Source: Sedimenticola thiotaurini
GTDB lineage: Bacteria > Pseudomonadota > Gammaproteobacteria > Chromatiales > Chromatiaceae
Assembly: GCA_007713595.1 (NCBI GenBank)
Contig: VMRY01000010.1
Location: 106,161 to 170,160 of the forward strand
Reading direction: 5' to 3'
DNA length: 64,000 bases
The first letter of the stretch is position 1. Every line of letters begins with the position of its first letter. Under the pieces are notes generated by a model. That model was not told where the DNA came from. It ran no database searches and was given only the letters and a program-made list of their open reading frames with translations. The position numbers and the translations under genes are program-made. Positions 1,298 to 34,699 of this stretch are shown piece after piece.

Positions 1298-1341
1298 CTA
1301 GAAAGATGCCACCATTAATCGTCAGTCTATGATCATTCCAA

Positions 1342-2607: not shown

Positions 2608-2620
2608 AGCGTTGCCCTAT

Positions 2621-3442: not shown

Positions 3443-3534
3443 ACATCCTTATTAAACACTAAAAATAATTACCAGCTTATCTTAGAAGAGCATGCATGAG
3501 CACAATTTGAGTACAACTTCGACACCCTACGAGC

Positions 3535-4920: not shown

Positions 4921-5086
4921 AAACTGCCTAAAGGCTTCTTACATACAACGATCATGCAATCATCTCCTCGAGATAGCATGCCGACGAACCGGAAGGGAAA
5001 GCCAATATTGAGACAGACCGGCCAGAACATCGGCAACCCCGGTCTTCGAAAAATATTTGCAGAAAAACAACATCTGTTCGCTTTGA

Positions 5087-6415: not shown

Positions 6416-6417
6416 TG

Positions 6418-8131: not shown

Positions 8132-8821
8132 TTATCTTTTGCCGTCATGCTGTTTTTTACGTATTGTCACGTGTGCCTTAACCTCCTCCTCCCCGAATTC
8201 GGCCTGCGAAAACTCGAGGATATAGTCCCCGTGCTCTACGAATGCTCGAGGATAGGTCGGAGCGTCCAACATCCGTATGTGATCATAAACGCGGTTTAAC
8301 TCGCCATTAGTTGGCAAGACGCTCTGAAATGGCTTGCGTCGTTTGAAAAGCGTCACCTTTCCTGTTTGCGGAACGGGTTCCGGTTTTACGCGAATAATCC
8401 AGTCTATTAGCTCCCAAGATATATCACCTGCACGAAGATAGATTTCCTCAGCGCGCCCCTCCAACGATAAAGGGCGTTTGACATAGACCGGGCCCGCATC
8501 CATTTCTTCCGACATACGTAGGGCCGTGAGTTGTGTCTCTGAATATCCGCGCTCAATCAAATTTTGCAGCGGGCTACCACCACGCCCAAACGGAACATCA
8601 GTCATATGAAAACAGACGCATTCATACCTGGACCATATATCCTTTGGAACCAACCAGTTCCAGTGCAGGAAGAATATATAGCGGGGCTGATAATCTTCGC
8701 TGGCCCACTCCAACTCCTCAGGAGACGAAACATATTCCCAGACATCCGCTGCTCCAGACTGCCGTCGCGCAAATGCCTTTCGATGCCAATCCTTGCTACT
8801 TGCGACAATATAGTTAGTCAT
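8132..8821 (-). CDS. Formyltransferase-fold protein (methionyl-tRNA formyltransferase-like)
   Basis: FHMTDVPFGRGGSPLQNLIERGYSETQLTALRMSEEMDAGPVYVKRPLSL resembles the formyltransferase catalytic region; abuts pseI. Confidence 0.65.
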   Translation of the reverse strand: MTNYIVASSKDWHRKAFARRQSGAADVWEYVSSPEELEWASEDYQPRYIFFLHWNWLVPKDIWSRYECVCFHMTDVPFGRGGSPLQNLIERGYSETQLTALRMSEEMDAGPVYVKRPLSLEGRAEEIYLRAGDISWELIDWIIRVKPEPVPQTGKVTLFKRRKPFQSVLPTNGELNRVYDHIRMLDAPTYPRAFVEHGDYILEFSQAEFGEEEVKAHVTIRKKQHDGKR

Positions 8822-8848
8822 GGCCGTTTTGCATATACATTACTTCGC

Positions 8849-10531
8849 CTACTCGGAAGCACGTCTTGCCACAAAGTTCCCAATTACCAATACATCGATC
8901 ATACCCGTGCGAAGTGCGTCAATTGCCTCAACCGGGCTGGCGACAATGGGCTCTTCATGCCGATTAAACGATGTATTTATCAACGCCGGCTCGCCCGTTC
9001 TCTCGAAATATCGTCCGAGCAACGAATGCATAAAAGGATTATCCTCTTCGAAAACGACCTGTGGACGCGCCGTGCCGTCCACGTGAACAACGGCTGGGCT
9101 TGCCTGTTTCATGAAATCGGTGCACTGATATGTAACGGTCATAAATCTACTTGCCACATGATCCTGTTTCCAATCTACAAAACAACGTTCGGCAAGTTCA
9201 CTCATCAAAACCGGGGCGAATGGCATAAATTCGGTTCTTACCATCCGCTTATTGAGCCAGTCGTTAACTTCGACATCTCTACAATGATAGATGATGCTTC
9301 TATTGCAGAGCGCACGAGGCCCAAACTCCATACGACCTTGGAACAGCCCAACCACCTCACTCCTGGCAATTGCATCCAGTGCATCAGAAATAACATCTTC
9401 ACTTTTAATAAAATCAATTTGCGGCTCAGCGGAGAGTGCCCCACTAATCTCCTCATCCGCGTATGACGGACCAAGATACATATTTCTCCAATTGATCTTG
9501 GGTTTACCGTTTTGATGCAAAAATCCTGCTACAGCGCCAACACATAACCCACCATCACCCATCTGGGGCTGAACAAATATGTTATCGACCCCATCGATTT
9601 CCATGATGCATTGATTCACCCGCACATTGGCAAAAACACCGCCTGCCAGACACACATTCCGAATACGCGTCTTCTGTGTGTAATATTCCACCAATGCACT
9701 TACGCATTGCTCCAAGTGCAGCTGAGCCGCCGCGGCAACATCTTCCTTGCTGTTGGCAGCGACAATGCTCTGCAATTCATCAGAAAAATTCGAATAAAAA
9801 GGCCTGAAATAGTCACCCAAATGTGCGACGATTCGCCCGTCCTCAACATCTATCATTTTCTTCATTAGAGGCAGCAATTTGTTGGGATTGCCTCGCGCAG
9901 CAAGGCCCGTTATCTTTCCTTCATGCCTGTGAGGAACAAATCCCAGCAATTTAGTGATGCGACCATAAAAGAAACCCAAGCTATCGATGCTGGGCGCCCG
10001 ATAAAGAACCGAATGAGAGTCACGGGTAAAAACGGAGGCAGTAAGCGAAGTAAAATCTCCACGTCCATCACATGTCAATACCAACGCTTCATCAAAAGGA
10101 GCACAACAGTAAGCCGAATAGGCATGTGAATCATGGTGGTCTATATAAACAACCCTGTCGCCAAAATTATTATCCCTTGCAAATTTTGCAAATTCATCAC
10201 GCTTCGGCGCATCTCGCTCAATTTCAATAGAAATACGTTCACGAAACACATCTAAACCCGTCTTATTCTGTGCCTCCGCAGCAATCCGGTCGAAGTACGT
10301 GAGCAGATGCCTCTCTGCGTCAAATCCAGCACTCCAGCCATAAGCGATTATATTGACATCTTCTAGGCTTATGTCGCCGGCCTTAAGGCAATAATCAATT
10401 GAATGCTGTGGCCAAGAACTATCCATTTTGATGCGTGTAAACCGCTCCTCACTTGCCGCCGCGACCAATTCACCGCCCTTAATTAGGCAGGCGCTCGCAG
10501 TCTCATCGTTGGCAATCCCAAGAATATTCAT
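8849..10531 (-). CDS. Carbamoyltransferase, NodU/CmcH family
   Basis: MNILGIANDETASACLIKGGELVAAASEERFTRIK ... DHHDSHAYSAYCCAPFDEALVLTCDGRGD ... LAGGVFANVRVNQ ... GRMEFGPRALCNRSI. Confidence 0.92.
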   Translation of the reverse strand: MNILGIANDETASACLIKGGELVAAASEERFTRIKMDSSWPQHSIDYCLKAGDISLEDVNIIAYGWSAGFDAERHLLTYFDRIAAEAQNKTGLDVFRERISIEIERDAPKRDEFAKFARDNNFGDRVVYIDHHDSHAYSAYCCAPFDEALVLTCDGRGDFTSLTASVFTRDSHSVLYRAPSIDSLGFFYGRITKLLGFVPHRHEGKITGLAARGNPNKLLPLMKKMIDVEDGRIVAHLGDYFRPFYSNFSDELQSIVAANSKEDVAAAAQLHLEQCVSALVEYYTQKTRIRNVCLAGGVFANVRVNQCIMEIDGVDNIFVQPQMGDGGLCVGAVAGFLHQNGKPKINWRNMYLGPSYADEEISGALSAEPQIDFIKSEDVISDALDAIARSEVVGLFQGRMEFGPRALCNRSIIYHCRDVEVNDWLNKRMVRTEFMPFAPVLMSELAERCFVDWKQDHVASRFMTVTYQCTDFMKQASPAVVHVDGTARPQVVFEEDNPFMHSLLGRYFERTGEPALINTSFNRHEEPIVASPVEAIDALRTGMIDVLVIGNFVARRASE

Positions 10532-10609
10532 TTCTTATCCTGTTTATTACTCATGACTTACCCCTGAGGTCTGCATCAGTTGGCCGCACCCTGGGGACCT
10601 TACTATCCG

Positions 10610-11737
10610 TCAGCGTCCGTCGCGTGCAAGCACATGCCTGTCACCCGGAATCCGCTCCATCAGCTTTCTGATCACACGGCCAGCGCCATCACCATCAACA
10701 AGGCTGTGGCACTTCGCCGCCATTTCGTTAGTAACTCCGTTCTGCAACAGTGCTTCGAGCTCCTGATGAAGACTCGACAATGTCACCTCGCCCTTATCGC
10801 CCAGCCAACGGATCATTCCCTGTCGATGAAGTTCCGCTGCCGCTGCCTTTTGGTTATCGGCTATGGTAATAACAAGCGTCGCCAAGCCAAGGCAACAACG
10901 CTCCCATGACGTTGCACCACCTGCGCCAACTGCCGCGTCCGCATTCATCATCAACGGTGCGAGGCTTGGCAGCCTACCATGAAGAGTTATATTGCTATGT
11001 CCGCCAATCCTGTTACAAACCATTTCTGCATCAGGATGTTCAGTACTTAGGACAACATCAAGCTCGACATCACCAAGATCAAGCAAAAGGAAAGCGTCTA
11101 TCGTTAAAACGATTAAACTTCCAAAGTTTCCAGCACCGAAATATACAAGTATTCGACGCACGGGATCATTTCGCCGCATGGCACTCCCATGCAACTCACG
11201 GTATTGAGGTTGCAAAAGCGCAAACTCCGGTCCAAGCAATAACTCACATGCCCCTGGAACTTTATCCTTATAACGAGTTCGGGCATTGGATACCAGGTTC
11301 TGGTCGAGCAAAATATCGCAGTTGTGGAGACGATCCGCTAGATCGTCAATTACCATCAGGTGACGGCAACTCGGCCGGAGGATATTCTCCCAATTGATAT
11401 CCAGAGCATAATGATCAACGATTAGCCAGTCTGGCCGAGATGTACCCAGAGCCGCCGCCGTAAGTGCCGCATCATTGCTCCAAGAATCGCCAAGCCATCC
11501 GGCGTGCTTCGTCTCGTATAATCCGGCTGATATTGCTTCACCTGCATTTCTCGCTGGCAGACAAACCACATCAAATCCCTGTTCGTGGATCAGTCCTATC
11601 ATGTTGCCTTGATGCTCACGACTAACGAAGCGGCACTCGGCCCCCTTGTTCCGTAAGGCCTTCGCCAGCGTCAGGCAGCGCATTACATGTCCACTTCCGA
11701 TTTCGTTCGAGGCGTCGACACGAAATACAATCAACAT
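10610..11737 (-). CDS. pseG: UDP-2,4-diacetamido-2,4,6-trideoxy-beta-L-altropyranose hydrolase (PseG-like)
   Basis: Likely start is Met29 of the ORF-track frame: MLIVFRVDASNEIGSGHVMRCLTLAKALRNKGAECRFVSREHQGN ... GGATSWERCCLGL. Confidence 0.85.
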   Translation of the reverse strand: MLIVFRVDASNEIGSGHVMRCLTLAKALRNKGAECRFVSREHQGNMIGLIHEQGFDVVCLPARNAGEAISAGLYETKHAGWLGDSWSNDAALTAAALGTSRPDWLIVDHYALDINWENILRPSCRHLMVIDDLADRLHNCDILLDQNLVSNARTRYKDKVPGACELLLGPEFALLQPQYRELHGSAMRRNDPVRRILVYFGAGNFGSLIVLTIDAFLLLDLGDVELDVVLSTEHPDAEMVCNRIGGHSNITLHGRLPSLAPLMMNADAAVGAGGATSWERCCLGLATLVITIADNQKAAAAELHRQGMIRWLGDKGEVTLSSLHQELEALLQNGVTNEMAAKCHSLVDGDGAGRVIRKLMERIPGDRHVLARDGR

Positions 11738-12447
11738 GTGTCCTGCCTGCCCCTTGCCAGGAAACACGCACGCGCCATATCCAAATCTTCGGCATCGTCG
11801 ATATCCATAGCCGACATCCAACCCATAGGGTGGAAAAGGTAATCATCGCCATAGAAAGTTCCTTTCGACCTTAAAGCATCGACTTTTGCAATCCAAATGG
11901 CTCCACTTGGGCAATACAAGGGTGGTAAATCCTGGGAACGCGCCAATCTGGCTTCGGGAAACAGATGTTCAGGATAACCTTGATCATCAAGCTTGGCTGC
12001 CCACCATGGGTTCATCCAACCAAAGCGGAAACAACTAATCTGCGAATCTGCGCCACTCCCCATAAAATGGTTTACTGCATCTTCAATATCGGGCGCACCA
12101 CGTAATGGACAGTTTGCCATCAATTGTGAAACAAATTGGTAGCGCTCCCCCCAATGTCGCTCGGCTTGACCCAGTGCCACGATGGTTGCCTCGCTTGATG
12201 GCGATATGTCGTCCGCAGCGGAATCGCGTAGAAAGGGCACGTCTGCGCCAAACGTACGGCTAATCTCCGCGATCTCCGGGTCATCAGTCGATACCAGCAC
12301 ACGCTGATAGTGACCTGACTCTCTCGCAGCTTCGATCGTCCACGCAATCAGCGGCTTTCCGTGGAACTCTAATATATTTTTGCGGGGAAGGCGCTTAGAC
12401 CCTCCACGCGCCAGTATCACCGCAATATGGCTCACCAAGCCGTCCAT
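11731..12447 (-). CDS. pseF: Pseudaminic acid cytidylyltransferase
   Basis: IAVILARGGSKRLPRKNILEFHGKPLIAWTIEAARES, CMP-nonulosonate synthetase signature; abuts pseG. Confidence 0.87.
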   Translation of the reverse strand: MDGLVSHIAVILARGGSKRLPRKNILEFHGKPLIAWTIEAARESGHYQRVLVSTDDPEIAEISRTFGADVPFLRDSAADDISPSSEATIVALGQAERHWGERYQFVSQLMANCPLRGAPDIEDAVNHFMGSGADSQISCFRFGWMNPWWAAKLDDQGYPEHLFPEARLARSQDLPPLYCPSGAIWIAKVDALRSKGTFYGDDYLFHPMGWMSAMDIDDAEDLDMARACFLARGRQDTC

Positions 12448-13193
12448 CCTCCATCGACCGCGAGCACATGCCCTGTCATCCCGGAAAAATGATCAGACAA
12501 TAACATGTCCACGGGACCAGCCACCTCAAAGTCGGTCAACATCCGTCCTTGTGGGCACAATTGCGCATAACGCCGTTTAAAATCCTCATCGACACGGCCT
12601 TCTACGCCGCCAAAAGCGATGCAATTCACCTGCACGCCATTTGGCGCCAGACGAACAGCCAACTCCTTTGTAAGATGAGCCAAAGCCGCCTTTGCGACAC
12701 TGTAATGCAACGGCGACTGGGTTAACGGCTCCGTATATAGCGTGCGATTTGCTGCAACGGAACCATACTGTGAACCTATGTTGACGACCCGCTTTAATTT
12801 TGTCGCCGGCCATTTCACGAGAGTCATGGTTAACTCATAAGGAGCGATGACGTCAAGCAACAGTTCGTTAGCAAAATTGACACGGCTAACTGTTCCGTCA
12901 CGATCCATCCTTAGAAATTCAAGATTCCTTGCGTTATTGACCAGCGAGTCAGGAAAGACAGCCCTCATTTCCAGTTCGGTAACAAGTTCTGATGCGCTTG
13001 TTTCTTGCATAAGATCGCAACGGATACCAATAAACCGGTCGCCAAACCTCTCATACACGCAATTCATTTCATCTAAAGACGAATCACTGCGGGACGTTGC
13101 AATCACGGTATCGCCGGACGAAAGAAAATGCTCCAGCATCATCTTACCGAACTTCCCACTTGCGCCAGTAATTAGTATTGTCCTTTTGCTCAT
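12432..13193 (-). CDS. SDR family oxidoreductase
   Basis: TILITGASGKFGKMMLEHFL (TGxxxGxG-like), LHYSVAKAALAHLTKELAVRLAP (YxxxK). Confidence 0.85.
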   Translation of the reverse strand: MSKRTILITGASGKFGKMMLEHFLSSGDTVIATSRSDSSLDEMNCVYERFGDRFIGIRCDLMQETSASELVTELEMRAVFPDSLVNNARNLEFLRMDRDGTVSRVNFANELLLDVIAPYELTMTLVKWPATKLKRVVNIGSQYGSVAANRTLYTEPLTQSPLHYSVAKAALAHLTKELAVRLAPNGVQVNCIAFGGVEGRVDEDFKRRYAQLCPQGRMLTDFEVAGPVDMLLSDHFSGMTGHVLAVDGGWTAW

Positions 13194-14080
13194 AGTTTCC
13201 TGCCTGCTTCTATCAGGCCAACAACTTCAAGAACAAACTCTGGAGCAATGCGTTCCTCACGTTTTGTTACACCTGTAATAAAGTCCTCTAGAGCGCTCTT
13301 GAAAGCAAGGAACGCATCTTGAAAAAACATCTCCTTCCAGCCATTCTCGCCAATGAGCTTCAGGGAAAGTGGTCCATTCGCTCTGCCAAGTGCTGTTACA
13401 TGCAACTGAAGACCACTTGAAAATGTTGCAGCAAGGGTTGTTGAATCACCCGTATGCAAGACTTCCGTTTGTATAACCGCACCACGATCCTTAACCTGCA
13501 ACAGCGACGGTTCGATAACATGTACGGCGTATTTATCCCAATCCTTTGGCGTCATCGCGTATATCTGGCGAATCGGACCCAGCACAGCCCGATCTTCTCC
13601 CGAGAGGCAGAACTCCGAGGCATAACGAAGAGCCGAACAGGTAAACAACTGCCCGGTATATTTCTGCGCCGCCAGCATGACACGGGCCTCGGCCACCGAT
13701 AATGCTAGAGGCTTATCGATATAGACGGGTAGGCCGGCTTCGATGAATGTAAGGGCAAATTCTGCATGGCGTTCCGCATCATCTCGAGCCAAGAGAATTG
13801 CGTCGACTTGCCCGACCATATCTTCATATCGGTCGACCACGTTTTCAATTAGAGAAGCTCTGGCTATATGTGATGCAACTTCCCTATCCTGCGCCCAAAC
13901 GTGAGTAACCTTAGCACCGGCGATCTGATCTCTCGGAAATACCTGTTTTTTAAGATATCGTGGAATAACCGGGAACCCGCAGTGTTCCATTTCATCTGGG
14001 TCGTAGCCGTTGAATATGGCCGACCACGAATAAGGATGACCATTACCGGGCGAGAGCCCAATGACACCAAGACGGATCAT
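13190..14080 (-). CDS. Gfo/Idh/MocA-type oxidoreductase
   Basis: MIRLGVIGLSPGNGHP ... VDAILLARDDAERHAEFALTFIEAGLPVYIDKPLALSVAEARVML. Confidence 0.75.
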   Translation of the reverse strand: MIRLGVIGLSPGNGHPYSWSAIFNGYDPDEMEHCGFPVIPRYLKKQVFPRDQIAGAKVTHVWAQDREVASHIARASLIENVVDRYEDMVGQVDAILLARDDAERHAEFALTFIEAGLPVYIDKPLALSVAEARVMLAAQKYTGQLFTCSALRYASEFCLSGEDRAVLGPIRQIYAMTPKDWDKYAVHVIEPSLLQVKDRGAVIQTEVLHTGDSTTLAATFSSGLQLHVTALGRANGPLSLKLIGENGWKEMFFQDAFLAFKSALEDFITGVTKREERIAPEFVLEVVGLIEAGRKL

Positions 14081-14086
14081 TTGAAA

Positions 14087-14968
14087 TCACTCCTTCCAAC
14101 GAGAGGGGTTGACGAAAGCAGGGTCCTCGCAAGCGAGCCCCCCCGCATCAAAAATCCCGTGAACCGAAAAATCCGAAAAACACGCCCGGAATTGAGCCGC
14201 ATTTTCTACACCAACAAGTACCGTATCCACACAACCCAGATTACGCACATAGGACAATGCGGCCTGACTCAGGCTCATACCCTGCTCGGCAGCTGCCATA
14301 TGCCACCGGGTCACCAGCGCTCGGATCGGTTCAAAATATGTCGGCAATCGGCTCAGCGGCATGAGCAGCAACCCTTGTAGGAAAACTGATCGGACATGGA
14401 CTTCCACTCCCTTCTCCTTCAGCATCTCAAGATGACCGCTACGCAGGAGGCGCTGATCAAGAACACTAAGCGGCAACTGCACAATGTCAGGACAAAACAC
14501 CTTCAACACCGCATCAATCTGTCGCCCATCATAAACCGAGACTCCAATCTTGCTAACCAGGCCCTGCGTTCTTAGGGCTTCCATAGCGGAAAGCAACTTA
14601 TATCCCCCACGTATAAACAAATCGTCAACGCGGTGAAGCAATAGTCCATGGACTCGCTCACATGACAGGTTGGAAAGCGAACGTCGAAAAGTAGTCAATA
14701 ACTCATCCACTTGCTCAAAAGAAATCTCCGAACTGCCAAAACTAGGCGTCTTAGTAACAATCCGGAATCCATCGAGTACGTTTCTACCCAATACAGATTC
14801 GGCCTCCCCATACTGGGAAGCCGTGTCCAAAACACTTATGGAATGCTCTCGGGCTTCAGCAAGTATGGCCCTGACTTCGTCCCGCGATGTTTGGCCTTTT
14901 GCATTGGCAATCCCGTAAGGCAACCCCCATTGCACGGTCCCAAGACCCAGTTCCGCCGTGGCACTCAT
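14087..14968 (-). CDS. Aldo/keto reductase
   Basis: LGLGTVQWGLPYGIAN ... ISVLDTASQYGEAESVLG ... GLLLHRVDDLF. Confidence 0.87.
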   Translation of the reverse strand: MSATAELGLGTVQWGLPYGIANAKGQTSRDEVRAILAEAREHSISVLDTASQYGEAESVLGRNVLDGFRIVTKTPSFGSSEISFEQVDELLTTFRRSLSNLSCERVHGLLLHRVDDLFIRGGYKLLSAMEALRTQGLVSKIGVSVYDGRQIDAVLKVFCPDIVQLPLSVLDQRLLRSGHLEMLKEKGVEVHVRSVFLQGLLLMPLSRLPTYFEPIRALVTRWHMAAAEQGMSLSQAALSYVRNLGCVDTVLVGVENAAQFRACFSDFSVHGIFDAGGLACEDPAFVNPSRWKE

Positions 14969-16137
14969 TTTTCGAGAGCCGTTCTCAGTGCATTGATAAC
15001 ATATGCCTGATTTTCTTCACTCAAACCTGGATACATCGGCAAGCTGATTGTTTCCCTGTGATATAGTTCCGCCTGTGGACAATAACCTGCCTTAAAACCC
15101 ATTGCCTCGTAATATGGCTGCCGATAGACGGGGATATAATGCAGGTTGACCGCAATTTTCGCTCTCCATAATGCATCGTAGACCTGCCGCTGCGTCCTTC
15201 CACACAAACTTTCACGAACACGAATCGGGTAGAGATGGTAACTTGACCAACTCTCTGGATTTTGCCGTAGGGTCAGTACTGGCATTGAGGCAAACGCTTC
15301 GTCATAGTGCGCGGCAATTTCACGCCTGCGCTCAACGAAGGTATCAAGCCTCGACATCTGGCTGACGCCGAGCGCTGCCTGGATGTCAGTCATGCGATAG
15401 TTGTAGCCGAGATAAATCTGCTGGTAATTCCAAATCTCGTCTGCTGGCCTCGGCAGCATATGCGAATGGTCGCTGGTGATGCCGTGACTACGATGTCGCT
15501 GCAAACGGTCCAATAATATAGGATCGTTGGTCAGCGCCATCCCCCCTTCTCCGGTTGTAACAATCTTGACCGGGTGAAAACTGAATACGGTGATATCGCT
15601 GTAACGACAGGCACCCACCGGTTCTCCGCGAAAACGGCCACCGATACCGTGAGAGGCATCCTCAATAATGCGAAAGCCGTACTCCTGGGCCAGCTTATGG
15701 ACTGAGGCCATATCGCAACTTTGACCGCACAGGTGTACAGGGATGACCACCTTTGGCAATATCCCCCTGCGCTTGGCTTCTGCCAACTTATCGGTCAATC
15801 GATCAATACTCATATTGCCGGTAAGCGGATCTATATCCACGAAGTCCACCCTTGCGCCGCAATACAAGGCACAGTTCGCGCTGGCAACAAAGGTTGTTGG
15901 ACTGGTCCATACCCAATCGCCCGGCCCTACATCGAGGGCCATGCAGGACACATGCAGGGCTGATGTAGCACTATTGGTTGCCACCGCATGTTTTGCGCCA
16001 CAATACTGCGCCACGATGACCTCGAACCGTGGAACGGCGGGACCTTGTGTGAGAAAGTCTGATCGAAGTATGTCAACAACTGCTTCGACATCCGCTTCAT
16101 CAATATCTTGTCTACCGTACGGAATCTTGGATTTCAT
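14965..16137 (-). CDS. pseC: UDP-4-amino-4,6-dideoxy-N-acetyl-beta-L-altrosamine transaminase
   Basis: MKSKIPYGRQDIDEADVEAVVDILRSDFLTQGPAVPRFE ... EDASHGIGGRFRGEPVG ... FSFHPVKIVTTGEGGM, a DegT/PseC signature. Confidence 0.9.
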   Translation of the reverse strand: MKSKIPYGRQDIDEADVEAVVDILRSDFLTQGPAVPRFEVIVAQYCGAKHAVATNSATSALHVSCMALDVGPGDWVWTSPTTFVASANCALYCGARVDFVDIDPLTGNMSIDRLTDKLAEAKRRGILPKVVIPVHLCGQSCDMASVHKLAQEYGFRIIEDASHGIGGRFRGEPVGACRYSDITVFSFHPVKIVTTGEGGMALTNDPILLDRLQRHRSHGITSDHSHMLPRPADEIWNYQQIYLGYNYRMTDIQAALGVSQMSRLDTFVERRREIAAHYDEAFASMPVLTLRQNPESWSSYHLYPIRVRESLCGRTQRQVYDALWRAKIAVNLHYIPVYRQPYYEAMGFKAGYCPQAELYHRETISLPMYPGLSEENQAYVINALRTALEK

Positions 16138-16139
16138 TT

Positions 16140-17921
16140 TTACTCAACACAAAGGCCCGTAATTTGAGAATAGCTACCAGTACGGCGAATCCTCCCCTGA
16201 TCCAACTCGACGACGCAGTCACAGCGTGTGAGAGTCGATAGCCGGTGAGCCACCATCAGGATCGTGTACCCACTTCCCAGACTTCCAATCGCCTCCATCA
16301 CCGAACGTTCGGTATCGTTGTCGAGAGCGCTGGTCGCTTCATCTAAAACAATCACATCGGCACGCTTGTAAAGTGCCCGCGCAATTCCGATGCGCTGTCG
16401 CTGGCCACCAGAAAGCCTAACCCCACCTTCTCCGGTCATGGTTTGATACTGCTCAGGAAGAGTCTCTATGGTTTCCGCAATTTGGGCATAGACGGCTACC
16501 CGGCGCACCTGTTCGTGGTCGATCTGCTCGGAGGGGACACCAAAGGCAATATTTTCCGCAATAGTTGCATCAGCCAAAAAGATCGTTTGTGGTACATGTG
16601 CGATATGAGCCTGCCAAGCCCTTCGGTTACTATCGGTAACTGCGGCACCGTCGATGAGCAAAAGTCCTTCGCTCGGCTCAAGAAGACCCATCACAACATC
16701 AAGCAAGGTACTCTTACCACTTCCCGTCGTACCTATAAATCCGATTCGACTCCCCTTCGGAATACACAGATCAATCTCCTGGAGCACCGGAGGCGCATCA
16801 GCTGCGTAGTGATAACCAAGCCCCTTAAGAGTAATCTCGCCATCGAAAGGCAAAGGAGCGTGGACAGGTTCGTCGACATAACAAGGAAGAGGCTGATCAA
16901 GCAGGTCAAGAGCGTCGCTCAGTGAGGCTTGACCTCCCCGCATTGCTGCCATGCTAAGATAAATTTGCTGGAGCACCGGTAGCAGACGCTGGGCACCTAG
17001 AGCAAGTGCACCCAACACAGGAATCGCATTGGCGATGCCTTCTGGATTACCGGCAAGAACATATGCCAGCCAAGCAATCAGAATCATCGCAAGCGCTTCA
17101 ATACCGAATCTTGGGCTACTACTGACAATCTGGACGTTGGCCTGAGCACGGCGTAAAGGCAAGTCAGCATTGCGGTAAATCTTGCAATAAGCTGCCTGAG
17201 TCCCATCCAGCAGAACGTCCCGGATTCCCCCCAGCCCTTCCTGCAAAGCCTTGATCACTTGTGTCGACTCACGGCTTATCCGCTTACTGTCACGAGCAAG
17301 ACTGCGCTTAGTAAACCCGATCACTACCATGTATATCAGGCCGAAACCGGCGAAAGCTCCGATCGCTATCACGGGATCGATGATGATCAAGGCAACCAGA
17401 ATGGCGACCAGCATCATCGAAGAACTTACGATGGTCAGCACCGGCAACACGGTATTGTTTACCAACACACTCGTTTTTGCCGTAATTCCGGCGATAACTT
17501 CGCTGCTGTTCCGCACTAGATGGGTGGAGTAGGGCTGATACAACGTACGCCGGTAGATCTCTATGCTGAATTCGACGCCGATTGCATGCCCCATACGAGT
17601 CTGTACCCAGAGCAACAACAGACGCATTCCGCCGGAAAACAGAGCTGCGACAGAAAATGCCACCGTAAGCGGCAACAGCAGCTGATCCGGACGCTCCAAC
17701 CCGAGCACCTCAATGAGCGGCCGCGCAGTTGGGTGAGCAAAAATCATATCAGGTGCAGTCAACACCCCTAGAAACGGCAAGACCGCTCCGATACTGAGCA
17801 CCTCGGCAAAAGATGCAGCAATGGTCAGCATTAGCAGCAGGGCAAACTGAAAACGACGGCGCGCGGAAATGTGCTTCCATAAGCGTTTGAGTAAAGGGAT
17901 CAACAAGGGATGCTGCTGCAT
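16140..17921 (-). CDS. ABC transporter, fused permease/ATPase (PglK-like polysaccharide flippase)
   Basis: Six-TM N-terminus plus Walker A GTTGSGKST, signature LSGGQRQRIGIARAL, Walker B VIVLDEATSALD. Confidence 0.85.
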   Translation of the reverse strand: MQQHPLLIPLLKRLWKHISARRRFQFALLLMLTIAASFAEVLSIGAVLPFLGVLTAPDMIFAHPTARPLIEVLGLERPDQLLLPLTVAFSVAALFSGGMRLLLLWVQTRMGHAIGVEFSIEIYRRTLYQPYSTHLVRNSSEVIAGITAKTSVLVNNTVLPVLTIVSSSMMLVAILVALIIIDPVIAIGAFAGFGLIYMVVIGFTKRSLARDSKRISRESTQVIKALQEGLGGIRDVLLDGTQAAYCKIYRNADLPLRRAQANVQIVSSSPRFGIEALAMILIAWLAYVLAGNPEGIANAIPVLGALALGAQRLLPVLQQIYLSMAAMRGGQASLSDALDLLDQPLPCYVDEPVHAPLPFDGEITLKGLGYHYAADAPPVLQEIDLCIPKGSRIGFIGTTGSGKSTLLDVVMGLLEPSEGLLLIDGAAVTDSNRRAWQAHIAHVPQTIFLADATIAENIAFGVPSEQIDHEQVRRVAVYAQIAETIETLPEQYQTMTGEGGVRLSGGQRQRIGIARALYKRADVIVLDEATSALDNDTERSVMEAIGSLGSGYTILMVAHRLSTLTRCDCVVELDQGRIRRTGSYSQITGLCVE

Positions 17922-17942
17922 TTGATTGCCAGTTGGAGATAT

Positions 17943-19037
17943 CTACTCGACAAACGCCATGGTCTGGTAACCGTGTTTCTTAACTAGTTCATCGCGCTCG
18001 GCAGACCTGAGATCTTCCCTCACCATCTCAGCAACCAGCTCCTCAAAACTTATGCTCGGCGTCCAGCCAAGCTTCTCCTTTGCCTTTGTCGGATCACCGA
18101 GTAGAGCTTCGACTTCAGTGGGGCGAAAATAGCGGTCATCGACAGCGATGATGACATTGCCTTTTGTATCGTAACCCTTCTCCTTCACACCTTCACCTTC
18201 CCAGCGGATTTGCATCCCAAGTTCCTTGGCCGCAGCATTAACAAAGTCACGAACCGAATACTGGACACCAGTAGCGATAACGAAGTCTTCAGGCTTGTCC
18301 TGCTGGAGCATGAGCCACTGCATTTCGACGTAGTCACGGGCATGCCCCCAGTCGCGCTTGGCTTCCAGGTTGCCCAAATACAGGCAATGCTGCAAGCCTA
18401 TCTTAATTCTGGCAAGAGCTCGTGTGATTTTACGAGTAACGAAAGTTTCGCCACGAATTGGAGACTCATGATTAAAGAGGATGCCATTGCAGGCGTAGAT
18501 GCCGTAGGCTTCACGGTAGTTGATAACGATCCAGTAGCCATAGAGCTTGGCGACAGCGTAGGGGCTACGTGGATAGAAGGGGGTAGTTTCATTCTGAGGA
18601 GTTTCCTGGACAAGACCGTAGAGTTCAGACGTTGATGCCTGGTAGAAGCGAGTTTTCTTTTCGAGGCCGAGGATACGGATGGCTTCGAGAATGCGCAGAA
18701 CACCGAGAGCGTCGGAGTCTGCCGTGTATTCGGGCTCCTCGAAGCTGACGGCAACGTGAGACTGGGCGGCGAGATTGTAAATCTCGTCGGGTTGGACCTG
18801 CTGAATAATGCGGATCAAGCTGGAAGAGTCGGTCATGTCTCCGTGGTGAAGGAAAAACCGAACGCCCTTTTCATGGCGATCCTTGTAGAGATGATCGATG
18901 CGGTCAGTGTTGAAGAGGGAGGTGCGACGTTTGAGACCGTGGACTTCGTATCCTTTTTCGAGTAGGAATTCGGCGAGGTACGCTCCATCCTGCCCAGTGA
19001 TACCGGTGATTAGCGCAACTTTGTTTTTTTCTCTCAT
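17943..19037 (-). CDS. gmd: GDP-mannose 4,6-dehydratase
   Basis: [46 protein letters not shown], canonical Gmd N-terminus. Confidence 0.96.
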
Positions 19038-19050
19038 TCTGAAATTTCCT

Positions 19051-20028
19051 TCAGGACTGCGTGATATAGTTTTCCAAGAAATCTCCGTAAGCCATCTCGA
19101 GCCCCTCTTCTAGGCCAATCTCGGCCTGCCAGCCCAAGGTATTAATTAGGGAACTATCCATTAGCTTGCGCGGAGTACCATCTGGCATATTACGGTCAAA
19201 AGCAATCTCTCCCTTATATCCGACCACGTTGCCAATAGCCTCTGCAACTTCTCGAATCGTGATATCGTGCCCACACCCCACATTGATATGACTGAGCATG
19301 GGTTTTGTGTGCTGATCGAATACGGTTTTTTCAATGTTCATGATATATACGCAAGCCATAGCCATGTCATCGACGTAGAGAAACTCCCGCTTCGGCGTAC
19401 CGGAACCCCAGATGGTGACTTTTGAAGCACGGTTGATCTTAGCTTCATGAAATCGGCGAATTAGAGCTGGAATGACATGAGCATTTTCCTGGTGGTAATT
19501 GTCGCCGGGGCCATAGAGGTTGGTCGGCATAACGCTGCGGTAGTCGATACCATAGCTTGCACCATATTGCCGGTTGTAACTTTCACACAACTTGATACCA
19601 GCAATCTTGGCGATAGCATAAGGTTCATTGGTATGTTCGAGTGTACTGGTGAGCAGAGCATCCTCGCGCATAGGCTGTGGGGCCAGTTTTGGATAAAGGC
19701 AACTTGACCCGAGGAATAGCAGCTTTTTTACTCCACAACGGAAAGCCGCATCGATGACATTAGCTTCGATCATCAGGTTTTCGTAAATAAACTCGGCTGG
19801 GTAGATATGGTTGGCGTGAATGCCACCGACTCTGGCTGCAGCAAGATAAACCTGATCAGGCTTTTCAACTTCAAAGAAGGCCCGGACGGCAGCCTGGTCA
19901 GTGAGGTCGAGTTCCGCCTGCGTCCGGGTGATTATATTCTCGTACTGGTGAATCCGTAGAGTACGAACAATAGCCGAACCCACCATACCTAGATGACCAG
20001 CAACGTAGATCTTCCAATCTTTATTCAT
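19051..20028 (-). CDS. fcl: GDP-L-fucose synthase
   Basis: [20 protein letters not shown] ... [29 protein letters not shown] ... LYGPGDNYH. Confidence 0.96.
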
Positions 20029-20265: not shown

Positions 20266-20805
20266 TTATAAACTTGCCATATCAAATGACCCTGCTGATG
20301 CATCCTTCTCTGACAGAATCGGAGCACTAACCGGCCAATCAATTGCTATAACTTGATCATTCCAGGCAATTATTCGCTCATGTTCCGGCGAATAGTAATC
20401 CGTCGTCTTATACAACACGTCAGCTTCTTGACTTAACGTTAAGTATCCGTGCGCAAAACCCTGTGGAATCCATAATTGCCTCTTATTAGCAGCGCTAAGG
20501 TGTGCGCCAACCCACTTGCCATACGATGGCGATTCCTTTCTGATATCTACAGCAACATCAAAGATCTCACCATTGACAACTCGAACCAGTTTTCCCTGCG
20601 CCTTGGGCGATAACTGATAATGCAATCCGCGCAATACACCTAGGGTAGACTTGGAATGATTATCCTGTACAAAGGATGCATGTAGCCCGACAGCATCTTC
20701 GAATAGCTTCTGATTAAAGCTTTCATAGAAGAAACCTCGTTTGTCCTCAAAAACATTGGGCTCTATGAGCTTAACATTTGGTATTTGTGTTTCAGTTACT
20801 TTCAT
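20266..20805 (-). CDS. rfbC: dTDP-4-dehydrorhamnose 3,5-epimerase
   Basis: [36 protein letters not shown] ... [15 protein letters not shown]. Confidence 0.96.
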
Positions 20806-21682
20806 GAAATGACTCTTTGATTAGCTGAAGAAGGTAAGCTCCATACCCATTCTTTGATACCCGCTCAGCTAACTTTTCAAGCTGTACTTTACTGATCCAT
20901 TGATTTCGATAGGCTATCTCTTCAGGGCAGGCGATCTTCAACCCTTGCCGATGTTCGATCGTTTGAACAAATTGATGCGCTTCGAGCAAGCTCTCATGGG
21001 TTCCGGTATCCAACCAGGCATAACCTCGTCCCATGCGTTCAACTGCAAGCGTTCCGTTGTTCAGATAGATTCGATTCAGATCGGTAATTTCAAGCTCACC
21101 TCGAGCGGAGGGTTTTAATTGCTTCGCGTAGTCGACGGCAAAATGATCATAAAAGTAGAGACCGGTGACTGCATAACTGGACTTGGGTTGCTCCGGCTTC
21201 TCCTCCAGACTAATCGCCTTTCCAGCATTATCAAACTCCACGACACCGTAACGCTCGGGATCACGGACGTGGTATGCAAATACCGTAGCGCCGCCTGATC
21301 TGGCGTTTGCAGACCGCAAATTCTGATTTAGGGAGTGACCATAGAAAATATTATCTCCCAAAACTAGAGCACATGGCGCCCCATCCAGGAACGCTTCACC
21401 TATTATCAGTGCCTGAGCCAGACCGTCAGGTGAGGGTTGTACAGCATACTGAAGACTCAAGCCCCACTGGGAGCCATCGCCCAACAACTCCCTGAACCTT
21501 GGTGTGTCTTCTGGAGTTGATATCACCAAGATTTCCCGAATCCCGGCCAACATCAGTGTTGACAGCGGATAGTAGACCATCGGCTTGTCAAATACGGGCA
21601 AAAGCTGTTTGGATACCACCTGGGTGGCGGGGTAGAGTCGAGTACCCGAACCGCCCGCGAGAATAATGCCTTTACGGGTCAT
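20792..21682 (-). CDS. rfbA: Glucose-1-phosphate thymidylyltransferase
   Basis: [55 protein letters not shown]. Confidence 0.97.
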
Positions 21683-22581
21683 TGTCGTGCTTCCTCTCTG
21701 ACCAAATAATCAATAAAGCAATCGACCTCCGACTGCCAATCCGGCAAGGTGATGTCAAGAGTTTGGGTGAGAAGGGATGTATCCAATCTCGAGTTCATTG
21801 GTCGTTTTGCAGGAGTTGGGTAGTCTTTTGTTTTAATAGGTCGTATCTGCTCGGGTTTCAGGTCAAGCAGCATTCCTGACTGACGCGCCCGGCTTACCAC
21901 CCTCCGCGCCAGCTCATGCCAGGTCGTATCACCTGACGGCGCAAGATTGAAGATGCCCGCCCCCATTGTGCCGCCAAGGATTGCGGGAATGGCTTGGGCG
22001 GTGATCTCCGCAATCTGTACCGCTGAGGTGGGAGCGCCTCGCTGGTCAGCTACAACATCCAGCATCTCCCGCTCCCTGGCAAGGCGTAGAATGGTTTTGA
22101 TAAAGTTGCTTCCGTGCGCACCATAGACCCAACTGGTGCGGAAGATGAGGTATTTGCATCCACTTCGTCTTATCGACCCTTCGCCTTGCAGTTTGCTCTT
22201 GCCGTATATGCCGAGCGGATTTGGCTGGTCCGTTTCGATATAGGGTTGGTCCTTAGTTCCATCAAATACATAGTCGGTGGAGTAATGAACCAGCCAAGCG
22301 TCGAGGCATTTAGCTTCCTCTGCCATCAGCGAGACTGCTTCAGCATTGATGCTATTTGCCTTATCCGGTTCCGTTTCAGCCCGGTCCACAGCAGTATAGG
22401 CTGCGGCATTTACGATGATGTCCGGGCAATAGCTCCGGATAACCGCTTTCATACTCTCCTGGTCTTCGAGATTCGCCTCTTCTCTGCCACAGGGCTTGAG
22501 TTGTCCTAATTGCGGTAAAGTACGTATAAGCTCCGTACCAACTTGGCCGGTTTTGCCAAACAGGAGAATCTTTACGGGCAT
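21679..22581 (-). CDS. rfbD: dTDP-4-dehydrorhamnose reductase
   Basis: [18 protein letters not shown] ... [29 protein letters not shown] ... [10 protein letters not shown]. Confidence 0.96.
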
Positions 22582-23905: not shown

Positions 23906-23917
23906 CACGCTACCGCC
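23906..23917 (-). promoter_or_regulatory. ops element (RfaH recruitment site)
   Basis: Plus strand CACGCTACCGCC; reverse complement GGCGGTAGCGTG matches the E. coli ops sequence. It lies 266 nt upstream of rfbB, oriented into the operon, with rfaH divergent next door. Confidence 0.88.
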
Positions 23918-24338
23918 ATGACTTGCTGGTTTTGCAAGCCTGACTGAAAATGCGTTGAAGACTTTTGATCCAGCAGGTTAGGACACTAATCGAACACGAA
24001 TAATTCAGAGGCAGGCATGGTAGCATCAAGCGGTATTGATTTACAATTTCAAGCCATTAATCAGGCAGCAAACTCTGATTACGAAGCACTACCCGTTTCT
24101 GGTAACAAGCGACACGGTTAGACCCGTGACAAAGTATCGGTCTGTGAAAATAGCCGATCAGAGGGCTGCGCCCCCCCCCACAGAGAGCCTTGTAGACGAT
24201 TATGTTATTCAAATCGCATTTCATAAAAGGATCACAAAAAAACAACTCTTTCCACTACACAAGGGGTTGAACATTATTGATTTTCCAATCAATATGCACA
24301 ACCTGGCATGAAACCTCCGTCTCAGAAAAGGAATCCAA

Positions 24339-24833
24339 ATGAGCCATCAAGCAGCCTGGCATCTAATACACACAAAACCCCGCCAGGAAAGAACAGCTCG
24401 AGAACAACTGGAGAGGCAAGGCTACTACACATACCTTCCTGAAATTAGGCAATCAAATCATAGCGGAACGACTACAGCCCCTTTATTCCCCCGCTATCTG
24501 TTTATCCGCCTGACCGCAGGGCAAGATGACTGGACTCCAATTAGATCAACCCGAGGTGTGAGTTCACTAGTTCGTGTCGGCATAAAACCCGCCATCATTT
24601 CCGACCCGTTAATTGCAGCTATCCGGCAGAGAGCAGGTGCGGATGGCCTACACAGGCTGCCGGCCAAAAACTTTGCTAAAGGGGACTTCGTAAGGCTTGT
24701 AAACGGTCCATTGGCTGACTATGAGGCGATCTTCAGCGAGCAGCGTGCCGAAAACCGGGCAATTATCCTGCTCAACCTGATCGGCAAACAGAACCGAATC
24801 GAGGTGCCGCTAGAGAACATAGCCAGATTGTAG
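24339..24833 (+). CDS. rfaH: Transcription antitermination factor RfaH
   Basis: WHLIHTKPRQERTAREQLERQGYYTYLPEI ... PLFPRYLFIRL ... STRGVSSLVRVGIKPA ... KOW-like C-terminus. Confidence 0.92.
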   Translation: MSHQAAWHLIHTKPRQERTAREQLERQGYYTYLPEIRQSNHSGTTTAPLFPRYLFIRLTAGQDDWTPIRSTRGVSSLVRVGIKPAIISDPLIAAIRQRAGADGLHRLPAKNFAKGDFVRLVNGPLADYEAIFSEQRAENRAIILLNLIGKQNRIEVPLENIARL

Positions 24834-25125: not shown

Positions 25126-26859
25126 ATGACATCCCTCTCCCAGTACAAAAGACTCCTGCAGTATGTCCGCCCCCATTGGCGAATATTTCTTGTATCCATA
25201 CTTGGGACCATTGTGCTTGCTGCTACCCAACCGGCCATGCCCTACCTGATGAAGCCACTGCTAGATGGCAGCTTTGTCGACAAAGATCCGCAGATGATCT
25301 TGCTGGTACCTCTGCTGCTGATCGGCCTCGCGCTGATCCAGGGCCTGGCCACTGTTATCAGTTCAGTTGCCATGGAGTCAGTCGCCACCCGGGTAGTGTT
25401 CAATCTGCGTGAGTTGATGCTGCAGAAGCTCCTGGTTCTGCCAACCCGATTTTATGACAACAACTCGGCCGGGGTTGTGCTTTCAAAGATCACATTTAAT
25501 GTAGAGCAACTGACCAGTTCTGCCTCCTATGTCATCATTACCCTGATCCGGGACTCACTCTCCATTCTTGGCCTGTTGGGACTCATGCTCTATCTCAACT
25601 GGAAGCTGACGCTGATCGCCTTCGCCCTGATCCCTGCCGTCGCCTTCTTTGTCCGCATTGTCAGCAAACGCTTACGCACCATTAACCGCGCCCTGCAACA
25701 TCGCATGGGAGAGATGACCCATATTCTTGAAGAGATAATCACCGGCAACAAAGTAATCAAGCTCTTTGGCGGGCAGAAACAGGAAGCAAAGCGATTCTTC
25801 GGCTCCGCGAACAAAGTTCGTCAGTTCAAGATGAAGGCCGTGCTCGCACACAATAGCAGTGTCCAGGTGAACCAGATAATAGCGGTCTGCGGCCTCGCGC
25901 TAATGGCTTACCTTTCAGCCAAGGAATCAGCGGTAGGAAGTTTTACTGTCGGTGAATTTGTCGCCTTCTTTGGCGCCATGGCGATGATCCTGTCACCACT
26001 CAAAAAACTCACCAGTATCAACAATGAGCTGCAACGAGGGCTTGCTGCAGCAGAAAGTGTGTTCGAGTTGCTTGACCAGCAACCAGAACCGGACACCGGC
26101 ACATGTGAGCTGTCCGAACCCAGTGGTTTACTGGAGTGGCGGGATCTGGAGTTCAGTTACAGCGATGAGCCAAATCCCACACTGGCTGATATTCAGCTAA
26201 CCATAGAACCGGGAGAGAATATCGCCCTGGTTGGACCATCCGGGAGCGGCAAAACCAGCCTTGCCAGCCTGATTCCTCTATTTTATCGGCCAAGCCGTGG
26301 AACGATACGCATTGACCAGATTGATACCTGTGATCTGCCACTCGCAACCCTACGCGCCAATGTCTCCCTGGTCTCACAGGATGTCTTCCTGTTCAACGAC
26401 AGTATCAGAGCAAATATCGCCTACGGCATTAAAAGTAACGCCTCAGATGACCAGATCATTGAGGCCGCACGCGCTGCAAACGCGCTGGAATTCATTGAGC
26501 AGATGCCGGAAGGATTCAACACGACCATCGGTGATAACGGCGTCAGACTTTCGGGGGGGCAGCGTCAACGGCTTGCCATAGCCCGCGCCCTACTCAAGGA
26601 CGCCCCTATCCTGATCCTTGATGAGGCAACCTCCGCCCTGGATACAGAATCCGAGCAACTCATTCAGGAGGCAATGGATCGACTGCGCTCAGGCAGGACA
26701 ACACTGACCATCGCGCACCGCCTCTCGACCATTGAAAATGCGGATCGCATTGTCGTATTGAAGGACGGTCGCATCATCGAGATAGGCTCACATGCCGAGC
26801 TTCTGGCGCACGACGGACTGTATAAAAAGCTGCACACCATACAGTTCTCTACCGGATAA
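25126..26859 (+). CDS. msbA: Lipid A export ABC transporter
   Basis: Permease-ATPase fusion with PSGSGKTS, LSGGQRQRLAIARALLKDAPILILDEATSALD; next to an acyltransferase and LPS genes. Confidence 0.92.
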   Translation: MTSLSQYKRLLQYVRPHWRIFLVSILGTIVLAATQPAMPYLMKPLLDGSFVDKDPQMILLVPLLLIGLALIQGLATVISSVAMESVATRVVFNLRELMLQKLLVLPTRFYDNNSAGVVLSKITFNVEQLTSSASYVIITLIRDSLSILGLLGLMLYLNWKLTLIAFALIPAVAFFVRIVSKRLRTINRALQHRMGEMTHILEEIITGNKVIKLFGGQKQEAKRFFGSANKVRQFKMKAVLAHNSSVQVNQIIAVCGLALMAYLSAKESAVGSFTVGEFVAFFGAMAMILSPLKKLTSINNELQRGLAAAESVFELLDQQPEPDTGTCELSEPSGLLEWRDLEFSYSDEPNPTLADIQLTIEPGENIALVGPSGSGKTSLASLIPLFYRPSRGTIRIDQIDTCDLPLATLRANVSLVSQDVFLFNDSIRANIAYGIKSNASDDQIIEAARAANALEFIEQMPEGFNTTIGDNGVRLSGGQRQRLAIARALLKDAPILILDEATSALDTESEQLIQEAMDRLRSGRTTLTIAHRLSTIENADRIVVLKDGRIIEIGSHAELLAHDGLYKKLHTIQFSTG

Positions 26860-31887: not shown

Positions 31888-33009
31888 TCAATTTTTGACA
31901 TGAGGAACAGCATCCATACATTCCGCAAAACACGCCACCACTTCACTTTGCTGTTCAGTCTCAAGATAGGGATGCATAGGTAAACTCATTACACATTTTG
32001 ATACTAACTCTGCGACTGGCACTTGTGCCTCAGCATCAGCAAAAGCTGGCTGCAAATTTAGCGGAATAGGATAGTGAACAGCAACAGGAACCCCTCTGTC
32101 AGTCATATGCTCAACAACCTGATCTCGGCAATTTGTACTGATCGTAAATTGGGCAAAAACACTCACACAGTCATCCCTGACATATGGCAGCGTAACATTG
32201 GTAATGTTGGAGCCAGTGAATAACTCCAGATAATTTTCTGCGACTCTAGCTCGCAATGCCAGCTCATCTTCGAAAATTGTCAGCTTTGACAATAATATTG
32301 CGGCCTGCAGCGTATCAAGCCTACCATTGATACCAACCAAAGGATGATGGTAGCGCCTATCCTGACCATGCACTCGTATCTGCCTCATCAAGAGGGCCAG
32401 TTCATCATCATCCGTGAAACATGCTCCCCCATCACCATACCCGCCAAGCGGTTTAGATGGAAAAAAACTTGTGCAGGCTAATTCAGTTAAGCTACATGAA
32501 CGTCTACCTTTATAGAGAGCCCCAAAGCTTTGAGCCGCATCTTCAATCACCGGAATACCATGTCGTTTTGCAATAGATTTAATGCTATCAAAATCGGGAC
32601 ATTGCCCGTAAAGCGATACAGGAAGTATTGCCTTGGTCCTATCGGTTATTGCTGCCTCAATCAATGCAGGGTTGATATTGTAAGTGTCCCTTAAAATATC
32701 GACAAATACAGGTTTTGCACCAAGCAAGGCGATCACCTCAGCTGTTGCAATAAAGCTAAAGGGCGTTGTGATCACTTCATCACCAGGGCGAACTCCTAGC
32801 GCCATTAAAGCAATTAAAAGCGCGTCCGTTCCACTCGCCACACCTACACAATGCTTAACTCCTACAAATTCAGCCAGCCGCTCTTCCAGTTCAAATACTT
32901 CCTTACCTAAAATGTATTGACCATGATCAAAAACAGCCTTAACACGCTTTTCTATATCAGCTCGTATTCGAGCCTGCTGTGCTGCCAAATCTATAAATTG
33001 CATATTCAA
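31888..33009 (-). CDS. DegT/DnrJ/EryC1/StrS aminotransferase (WbpE-like)
   Basis: FIDLAAQQARIRADIEKRVKAVFDHGQYILGKEVFELEERLAEFVGVKHCVGVASGTDAL ... PSKPLGGYGDGGA. Confidence 0.9.
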   Translation of the reverse strand: MNMQFIDLAAQQARIRADIEKRVKAVFDHGQYILGKEVFELEERLAEFVGVKHCVGVASGTDALLIALMALGVRPGDEVITTPFSFIATAEVIALLGAKPVFVDILRDTYNINPALIEAAITDRTKAILPVSLYGQCPDFDSIKSIAKRHGIPVIEDAAQSFGALYKGRRSCSLTELACTSFFPSKPLGGYGDGGACFTDDDELALLMRQIRVHGQDRRYHHPLVGINGRLDTLQAAILLSKLTIFEDELALRARVAENYLELFTGSNITNVTLPYVRDDCVSVFAQFTISTNCRDQVVEHMTDRGVPVAVHYPIPLNLQPAFADAEAQVPVAELVSKCVMSLPMHPYLETEQQSEVVACFAECMDAVPHVKN

Positions 33010-33046
33010 TCCTACGGATACAATAACTCGAGCTATCTGATACGCA

Positions 33047-33625
33047 TCAACTTATGCGACTCACATGACCCGCCTTAAGCTCGTACAAGACACCTGTATT
33101 AGGACATGTAAAGATACAATTATCTTCTTCCAAAAAGTTCAAACGCTCCCCATACTCACTCATCCAGCCTATTTGTCGCGCTGGGACACCAACCATTAAT
33201 GCATAGTCTGGAACATCAGAACAAATAACCGCACCAGCACCAACGAATGCAAATTGCCCAATGGTAACACCACAAACCACTGTGCAATTTGCACCTAAAG
33301 TTGCGCCTTTTCTAACCAAAGTTGCACGGTATTCATCTTTTCTAGAAACAGCTGAGCGTGGATTATGAACATTGGTAAACACCATACTTGGCCCACAAAA
33401 CACATCATCTTCCAGTGTCACATTATCATAGACAGAGACATTGTTCTGGATCTTCACATTGCTCCCAATTTTAACGACATTTCCAATAAATACATTCTGG
33501 CCAAGACTGCAATTTTTTCCGATATCAGCTCCTGCTGAAACATGCACCCAATGCCATATTTTCGTTCCATCCCCAATTTTTGCACCGTCATCAATCAGTG
33601 CGGTTTTGTGCACAAATAAGTCCAT
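33047..33625 (-). CDS. Acyltransferase with hexapeptide repeats (WbpD/WlbB-like)
   Basis: [82 protein letters not shown]. Confidence 0.9.
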
Positions 33626-33634
33626 AAATCAATC

Positions 33635-34699
33635 TCAATACTCAAGCGGCAAAGAGACGCGTCTGCCATCCCGCGAAGACAGATAAGCCGCTATAAGGAT
33701 TTCCAACGATCGCAACCCTTCGCGACCGTCCGTTTCTGGGGCCGCTTTTCCCTGAAGCGCCTTTATAACATTATCGTAATAGAGCGGATGACCATAACCA
33801 TACACAGAGGAAGTCTGGTAATTGGCATCCTTAATTAAATGATCATTTTCATCAGCATCTTCAAATTCCCAGTGCTGTATCTCATTAACAGCAACACCAC
33901 CCACTCTAACTGTACCCTTTTCACCAATGATGGTTATAGATCCTTCCAGGTTCTTTGGATAAGTCAGCATTGTTACGTTCATTGAACCCATAGCCCCATT
34001 GCGCCAACGAACGCCCAAGGTTGCTGTATCTTCCACCTCGATATCTCTGGCAAGAGTTCCCGTATACGCCTGTAAACTTTCAACCGGACCAATCAACCAA
34101 TCGAGCAGATCAACATAATGACTGGCTTGATTCATCAAGGCACCACCATCAAATTCCCACGTCCCTCGCCATGCATCCATATCATAGTATTCTTGCGGCC
34201 TAGTCCAGAAAACATTAACAACAACCATATGAATACGACCAAAACGTTTCTTTTCTACAGCTCTCTTTAATAACTGAAGAGTAGTATTTCGTCGATTCTG
34301 CTTGACGACAAAAAGATGTACTCCTGCGGCATCACAGGCCTCAACCATCTGCACCCCATCCTGCCACCGAGTAGCCATTGGCTTTTCTGTCATTACATGG
34401 CGACCTGCTTCTGCGGCCTGTATGGTTTGTAGTGGATGCAATCCACTAGGTGTAGTCAACACGATAACATCAGCATCTGATTGTTCTATCATTTCTCTAT
34501 AACTTCTATAACCGGGAACCCCTTGATTCTTCTTTTGGGCCCCAATCAATCTTTGCTCATCTGTATCGCACAGCGCTACTAGTTCGGCATGCTCAGCGTG
34601 TTTAGAAATAGCCTCGAAATGTTTTGCTGAAATCCGACCACATCCAGCAAGTGCAAATTTAATTTTTCTGTCATTGATGGGCTTGGGTTTTTGGAACAT
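33635..34699 (-). CDS. Gfo/Idh/MocA dehydrogenase (WbpB/WlbA-like)
   Basis: KIKFALAGCGRISAKHFEAISKHAEHAELVALCDTDEQRL ... VMTEKPMATRWQDGVQMVEACDAAGVHLFVVKQNRRN. Confidence 0.88.
   Translation of the reverse strand: MFQKPKPINDRKIKFALAGCGRISAKHFEAISKHAEHAELVALCDTDEQRLIGAQKKNQGVPGYRSYREMIEQSDADVIVLTTPSGLHPLQTIQAAEAGRHVMTEKPMATRWQDGVQMVEACDAAGVHLFVVKQNRRNTTLQLLKRAVEKKRFGRIHMVVVNVFWTRPQEYYDMDAWRGTWEFDGGALMNQASHYVDLLDWLIGPVESLQAYTGTLARDIEVEDTATLGVRWRNGAMGSMNVTMLTYPKNLEGSITIIGEKGTVRVGGVAVNEIQHWEFEDADENDHLIKDANYQTSSVYGYGHPLYYDNVIKALQGKAAPETDGREGLRSLEILIAAYLSSRDGRRVSLPLEY

Follow-up and report, generated by a model that had tools for sequence, protein, structure and literature searches.

RfaH of Escherichia coli serves polysaccharide operons that carry the ops element, and in both the rfb and the waa JUMPstart sequences a 5-bp stem is followed by 1 nt and then ops; a 2010 study reported a stem-loop conserved in JUMPstart (PMC2864571). 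The ops element has been assigned to the class II pauses, which backtracking stabilises (PMC5995543). The pause falls at U11 of ops; after RfaH has bound, the hybrid is 11 bp long, and the complex is prone to backtracking and depends on GreA or Mfd (PMC11001881). RfaH paralogs beside polysaccharide loci have already been described (PMC7593976; PMC13015549), among them the Shewanella CL7 RfaHs, which lie in exopolysaccharide operons (PMC7593976).

The window analysed here, a 64,000-nucleotide stretch of Sedimenticola thiotaurini DNA, contains an rfaH gene divergent from an ops element that heads an O-antigen operon, an arrangement that suggests an on-switch dedicated to one target. Among named relatives, Sedimenticola selenatireducens is the nearest (RfaH 73%). 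The features are as follows.

25126–26859, plus strand: msbA, a constant neighbour on the far side of rfaH throughout the genus members examined
24339–24833, plus strand: rfaH (164 aa), oriented divergently to ops and the operon; TIGR01955, 158.8 bits
24017–24022, minus strand: putative −10 element of the O-antigen operon (TACCAT with TG in front), which would place ops at about +94
23920–23940, minus strand: JUMPstart-like hairpin with a 7-bp stem (GGCTTGC/GCAAGTC) and a 7-nt loop, separated from ops by 2 nt
23906–23917, minus strand: ops element GGCGGTAGCGTG, exact at 12/12 positions, the sole exact copy in the genome
22572–23639, minus strand: rfbB, the first target gene, lacking a Shine-Dalgarno (SD) sequence
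20266–22581, minus strand: rfbD, rfbA and rfbC (dTDP-rhamnose)
569–20028, minus strand: the remainder of the window's O-antigen/polysaccharide run, which continues beyond the left edge

rfaH, ops and cargo across the genus

The original prediction had placed a minus-strand ops at 23917–23906, with 266 nt between it and the start of rfbB and 421 nt to the start of the divergent rfaH, and an exact match was found there, in a non-coding and presumably transcribed leader upstream of a long operon. A genome scan for further copies, a check named beforehand, returned no second exact GGCGGTAGCGTG in the 3,862,527-base (3.86-Mb) genome. A reversed control 12-mer was likewise present once in the same search, so a lone 12-mer is not in itself rare, and it is the position of ops, not its occurrence, that lies beyond chance. 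The control is what would favour a chance 12-mer beside rfaH, a reading whose probability we consider negligible: the position was kept in seven genomes, is non-coding and is accompanied by a hairpin and a characteristic flank (see below), and by our own arithmetic a random 12-mer would fall in the right kilobase and strand with a probability of about 1e-4.

Downstream of rfbBDAC, the run at 569–20028 comprised fcl, gmd, an ABC transporter, DegT, a neuB-like gene, a carbamoyltransferase, a glycosyltransferase, sugar-modifying enzymes and others. The predicted length of about 23 kb for this operon was set by the window edge; the long minus-strand polysaccharide run itself stands and extends about 19.3 kb further (to C148:86843) through glycosyltransferase, DegT and epimerase genes, giving a same-strand run of about 43 kb, possibly more than one transcript. 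Among 33 genes checked, rfbB had the weakest anti-SD pairing, which fits the known RfaH-dependent genes of E. coli, likewise without an SD (PMC7819879). To the right of rfaH the gene order was msbA, lpxL, hldE, gmhA. On the far side of msbA–gmhA (31888–34699) the window also contained a Gfo/Idh, hexapeptide and DegT trio without ops; the same trio stood directly after ops in G003, G061, G095 and G146.

The −10-like TA..AT columns were conserved in all seven rfaH-bearing genus members, and nothing at the leader passed a promoter scan for sigma70. Transcription of the operon would start about 94 nt upstream of ops. A palindrome resembling GTTCA-N4/5-TGAAC was seen about 35–90 nt before ops in six loci (L038, L048, L050, L052, L068, L072), and within the genus a GTTCA/TGAAC-like palindrome lay near the putative transcription start.

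rfaH was detected in seven of nine genus genomes. In the near-complete G135 neither rfaH nor ops was present at the locus, where msbA adjoins a short rfbBDAC set, and no rfaH match was obtained in G147 (78% complete). All seven rfaH-bearing members carried a divergent ops-like site upstream of rfaH, of the form [GT]GCGGTAGC[GC]TG. The window and G117 had exact ops; the other five had candidate variants, GGCGGTAGCCTG in G095 and TGCGGTAGCCTG, two changes from ops, in four members (G003, G061, G146, G148). Synteny of rfaH and ops in relatives, another check named beforehand, was borne out by this divergent pair. Other matches to KGCGGTAGCSTG in the rfaH-bearing genomes lay mostly inside long open frames, which makes one RfaH target per genome the simplest reading. 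With one RfaH and one credible ops, adjacent and divergent, and both absent in G135, the predicted self-contained module fits well.

The order msbA–rfaH–ops was the same in 7/7 members while at least three cargo types followed ops: rfbBDA, MarR_EPS with Gfo/Idh-hexapeptide-DegT, and a third in G148. This constancy would suit a dock that stays in place next to msbA and is inherited vertically, with cargo alone being swapped and the module not travelling. The comparison of two close members (G117 and G095; nusG 99.4%, msbA 97.3% identical) argues against this, since their identity breaks between msbA and rfaH and not between ops and cargo. Their DNA was 92–95% identical by blastn through gmhA-hldE-lpxL-msbA and beyond and 80.7% across the whole of rfaH (81.1% for rfaH itself, even along the gene); past rfaH the leader and cargo were unalignable and the cargo differed. 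The G117 rfb genes were 86% identical to those of the window, against about 69–77% for the housekeeping flank, and the leader sequence tracked cargo type within the genus. A static dock thus explains the constant msbA neighbour and not the G117/G095 breakpoint, and we regard it as rather unlikely. Block replacement is the simplest account of the break together with the different cargo: rfaH, ops/leader and cargo were probably replaced together between G117 and G095, one clear natural case of the transfer with cargo that had been predicted. The blastn break was used for this purpose because trees of rfaH and msbA, tried as proof of transfer, comprised seven taxa and were too weakly supported.

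Viral-collection contigs and plasmids also carried the regulator. Two contigs from a viral collection with RepB/ParB-type genes (L224, L225) encoded rfaH with an exact ops about 155 nt downstream, followed by sugar-nucleotide genes. A conjugative plasmid (L349, NZ_CP065407.1) and a mobilizable one (L350, NZ_CP045856.1) had rfaH beside polysaccharide clusters and no ops within one mismatch; these plasmid RfaHs may use another recruitment signal.

A hairpin abutting ops

An inverted repeat had been noted at 23922–23938, and it forms part of the hairpin at 23920–23940 (loop AAAACCA; seven pairs including one G-U; dG −8.0), which was equalled by 3 of 150 dinucleotide shuffles. A hairpin ended 0–2 nt before ops or the ops-like site in all seven rfaH-bearing genus members. 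The other six had dG values of −7.9 to −14.0 and differed in sequence, except for that of G117, which is close to the window's. Between 1 and 11 of 150 shuffles matched the genus hairpins per site, those of G095 (11/150) and G146 (8/150) being modestly better than shuffles, and the combined Fisher p was about 6e-5 over six lineages, an approximate value as the lineages are related.

The window element scored 18.1 bits against the JUMPstart RNA family in an Rfam search (RF01707), below the gathering score of 35, and no genus locus exceeded the threshold. The original prediction had failed to match the rest of the JUMPstart sequence; that sequence is indeed absent, but the architecture, a stem-loop directly 5' of ops, is present. 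The element is therefore JUMPstart-like in layout and by curated score not a member of RF01707.

Palindromes can serve as protein-binding sites, and the hairpin might be an operator, an attenuator or a DNA structure instead of an RNA element acting on pausing or backtracking. We consider this improbable: there is no U-run after the hairpin, and its sequence changes freely although it remains paired and at the same short distance from ops, a pattern that suits a structure dictated by RNA polymerase geometry better than an operator.

Beyond the genus, 59 of 91 ops sites in family genomes with RfaH carried GGYA[GT]-type flanks under a loose rule on the bases directly before ops, compared to 0 of 23 in RfaH-less genomes (p 2.6e-9), where the 23 ops 12-mers lay inside long open frames. 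The shared flank type was CA-N-GGYA[GT]-ops-YCYGA, in which GGYA forms a stem with a TRCY arm further upstream. The ATGCC/ATACC motif upstream of family ops sites was tried as a −10 box and rejected, being the 5' arm of this stem. When 3' arms were permuted among 25 deduplicated family sites, the observed stem score was 6.09 against a mean of 4.64 (sd 0.28), whereas neither the remaining sites nor those of RfaH-less genomes showed an effect; after 13 sites of other families had been added (n=38), 0 of 2000 permutations were as good. The flank class was defined post hoc and the class-level sample was chosen for its 3' arm; the independent evidence lies in the 5' arm. A purine-versus-pyrimidine (R-vs-Y) check, independent of pairing, gave p 0.007. 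Across both the family and the class, ops sites with flanks of the RfaH type are directly preceded by a covarying stem.

Several loci held multiple ops copies. Two arrays, each on one strand, had near-identical leaders, one of 14 exact ops (G139:C1:1450785-1561380; L083, L084) and one of 10 (G107:C1:5913565-5937022; L082), the latter interspersed with island genes, nuclease-like ones among them, and with some copies heading a MarR_EPS (TIGR04176) gene. Smaller sets occurred in G021, G069 and G123, and one locus (L113; G069:C297:319-351) had two tandem copies 21 nt apart, each with a CACGGCAG flank. In several relatives MarR_EPS was also the first gene after ops (L050:9016-9384, L052:10523-10879, L218:10662-11033, L038:10618-11043); the window and G117 lacked it.

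The RfaH protein

The protein scored 158.8 bits against the curated RfaH model (TIGR01955; cutoff 144.5) and fell short of the curated UpxY (62.1 against 100 bits) and LoaP (37.7 against 125 bits) cutoffs. The genome encodes two NusG-family proteins, the housekeeping NusG and this RfaH, whose closest solved structures are those of E. coli RfaH. Compared to E. coli RfaH, the ops-contact residues K10, Q13, T72 and R73 were kept and three were changed (R16T, H20Q, N70R). The autoinhibition residues I93, F130, R138 and L142 were kept, and E48 was lost, as in all seven genus RfaHs (window A, G117 T, G003 A, G061 I, G095 V, G146 A, G148 F).

E48A renders E. coli RfaH independent of ops, and the monomorphic beta-RfaHs, which adjoin their operons, act without it (PMC13015549). 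On this basis the linked RfaH could be one of these monomorphic proteins, acting in cis and freed from its need for ops, with ops and hairpin a relic or only a pause. AlphaFold (AF2) modelled the C-domain of the window RfaH as a beta-barrel, and in Foldseek the model matched recruited RfaH along its entire length and autoinhibited RfaH in the N-domain alone. The beta result is non-discriminating because an E. coli-type control in the same alignment (L319) also came out beta, and AlphaFold was dropped as a test of metamorphosis. Against an ops-free RfaH, the ops or ops-like site, the hairpin and their position are kept in 7/7 members and absent where rfaH is absent, and we judge it unlikely.

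Proposed mechanism and comparison with known systems

We consider it probable that the locus is a dedicated, linked RfaH–ops antitermination unit. RNA polymerase would start about 94 nt upstream of ops, and the leader hairpin, lying 0–2 nt upstream of ops, would fold directly behind the 11-nt RNA-DNA hybrid as polymerase pauses at ops U11, where it may steady the pause or block backtracking. Locally made RfaH would then load by reading the exposed non-template ops bases, displace NusG, shield polymerase from Rho and recruit a ribosome to the SD-less rfbB message, the predicted outcome being transcription through the whole of the long O-antigen operon.

Support comes from the sequence parts, their single copy, their conservation and joint absence, the covarying hairpin, the missing SD and one exchange of rfaH with cargo. 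Against an antitermination unit are the only partial retention of ops contacts, the loss of E48 in 7/7 members, variant ops in five members, the modest hairpins of G095 and G146 and the lack of a sigma70 promoter in the scan. A broader proposal, possible and put forward tentatively, is that the working gammaproteobacterial RfaH loading site is composite, made up of ops and of an RNA hairpin without fixed sequence that lies directly behind the 11-bp hybrid, and that Sedimenticola RfaH is an intermediate in which the site is kept and the E48 lock has been lost because single-target linkage makes tight autoinhibition needless.

The E. coli RfaH system with ops/JUMPstart (rfb, waa) shares with this locus the RfaH family, the identical 12-nt ops, a stem-loop just before it, ops upstream of rfbB with rfbD next, and an SD-less first gene. 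It differs in that rfaH lies apart from its targets and acts in trans on several ops sites, E48 is intact and the JUMPstart sequence is conserved. The JUMPstart RNA (RF01707) has the same layout of stem-loop, short spacer and ops, whereas the stem and loop sequence here is unrelated (18.1 bits versus 35) and the spacer is 0–2 nt. A covarying hairpin beside ops across many genera offers a testable reason for the JUMPstart stem-loop, as it would lie just behind the paused hybrid, a place where hairpins can steady a pause or stop backtracking.

UpxY, LoaP, TaA and the Shewanella CL7 RfaHs (PMC7593976) are likewise encoded with their long polysaccharide or antibiotic operons; the present locus has an exact ops and a hairpin, and its RfaH is below the UpxY and LoaP cutoffs. 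The monomorphic beta-RfaHs (PMC13015549, a preprint) also adjoin long LPS operons, and the E48 lost here is the residue whose E48A change mimics their behaviour, but they are without key ops-binding residues and work without ops, which is kept here. The novelty implied for linkage thus holds in part: linkage of RfaH to polysaccharide loci was known, and the ops-bearing, single-target version is new, namely a linked, single-ops, E48-less RfaH combined with a sequence-free JUMPstart-like hairpin. Keeping one ops and the hairpin, this linked RfaH forms a bridge between the described systems, a minimal arrangement of one regulator and one site.
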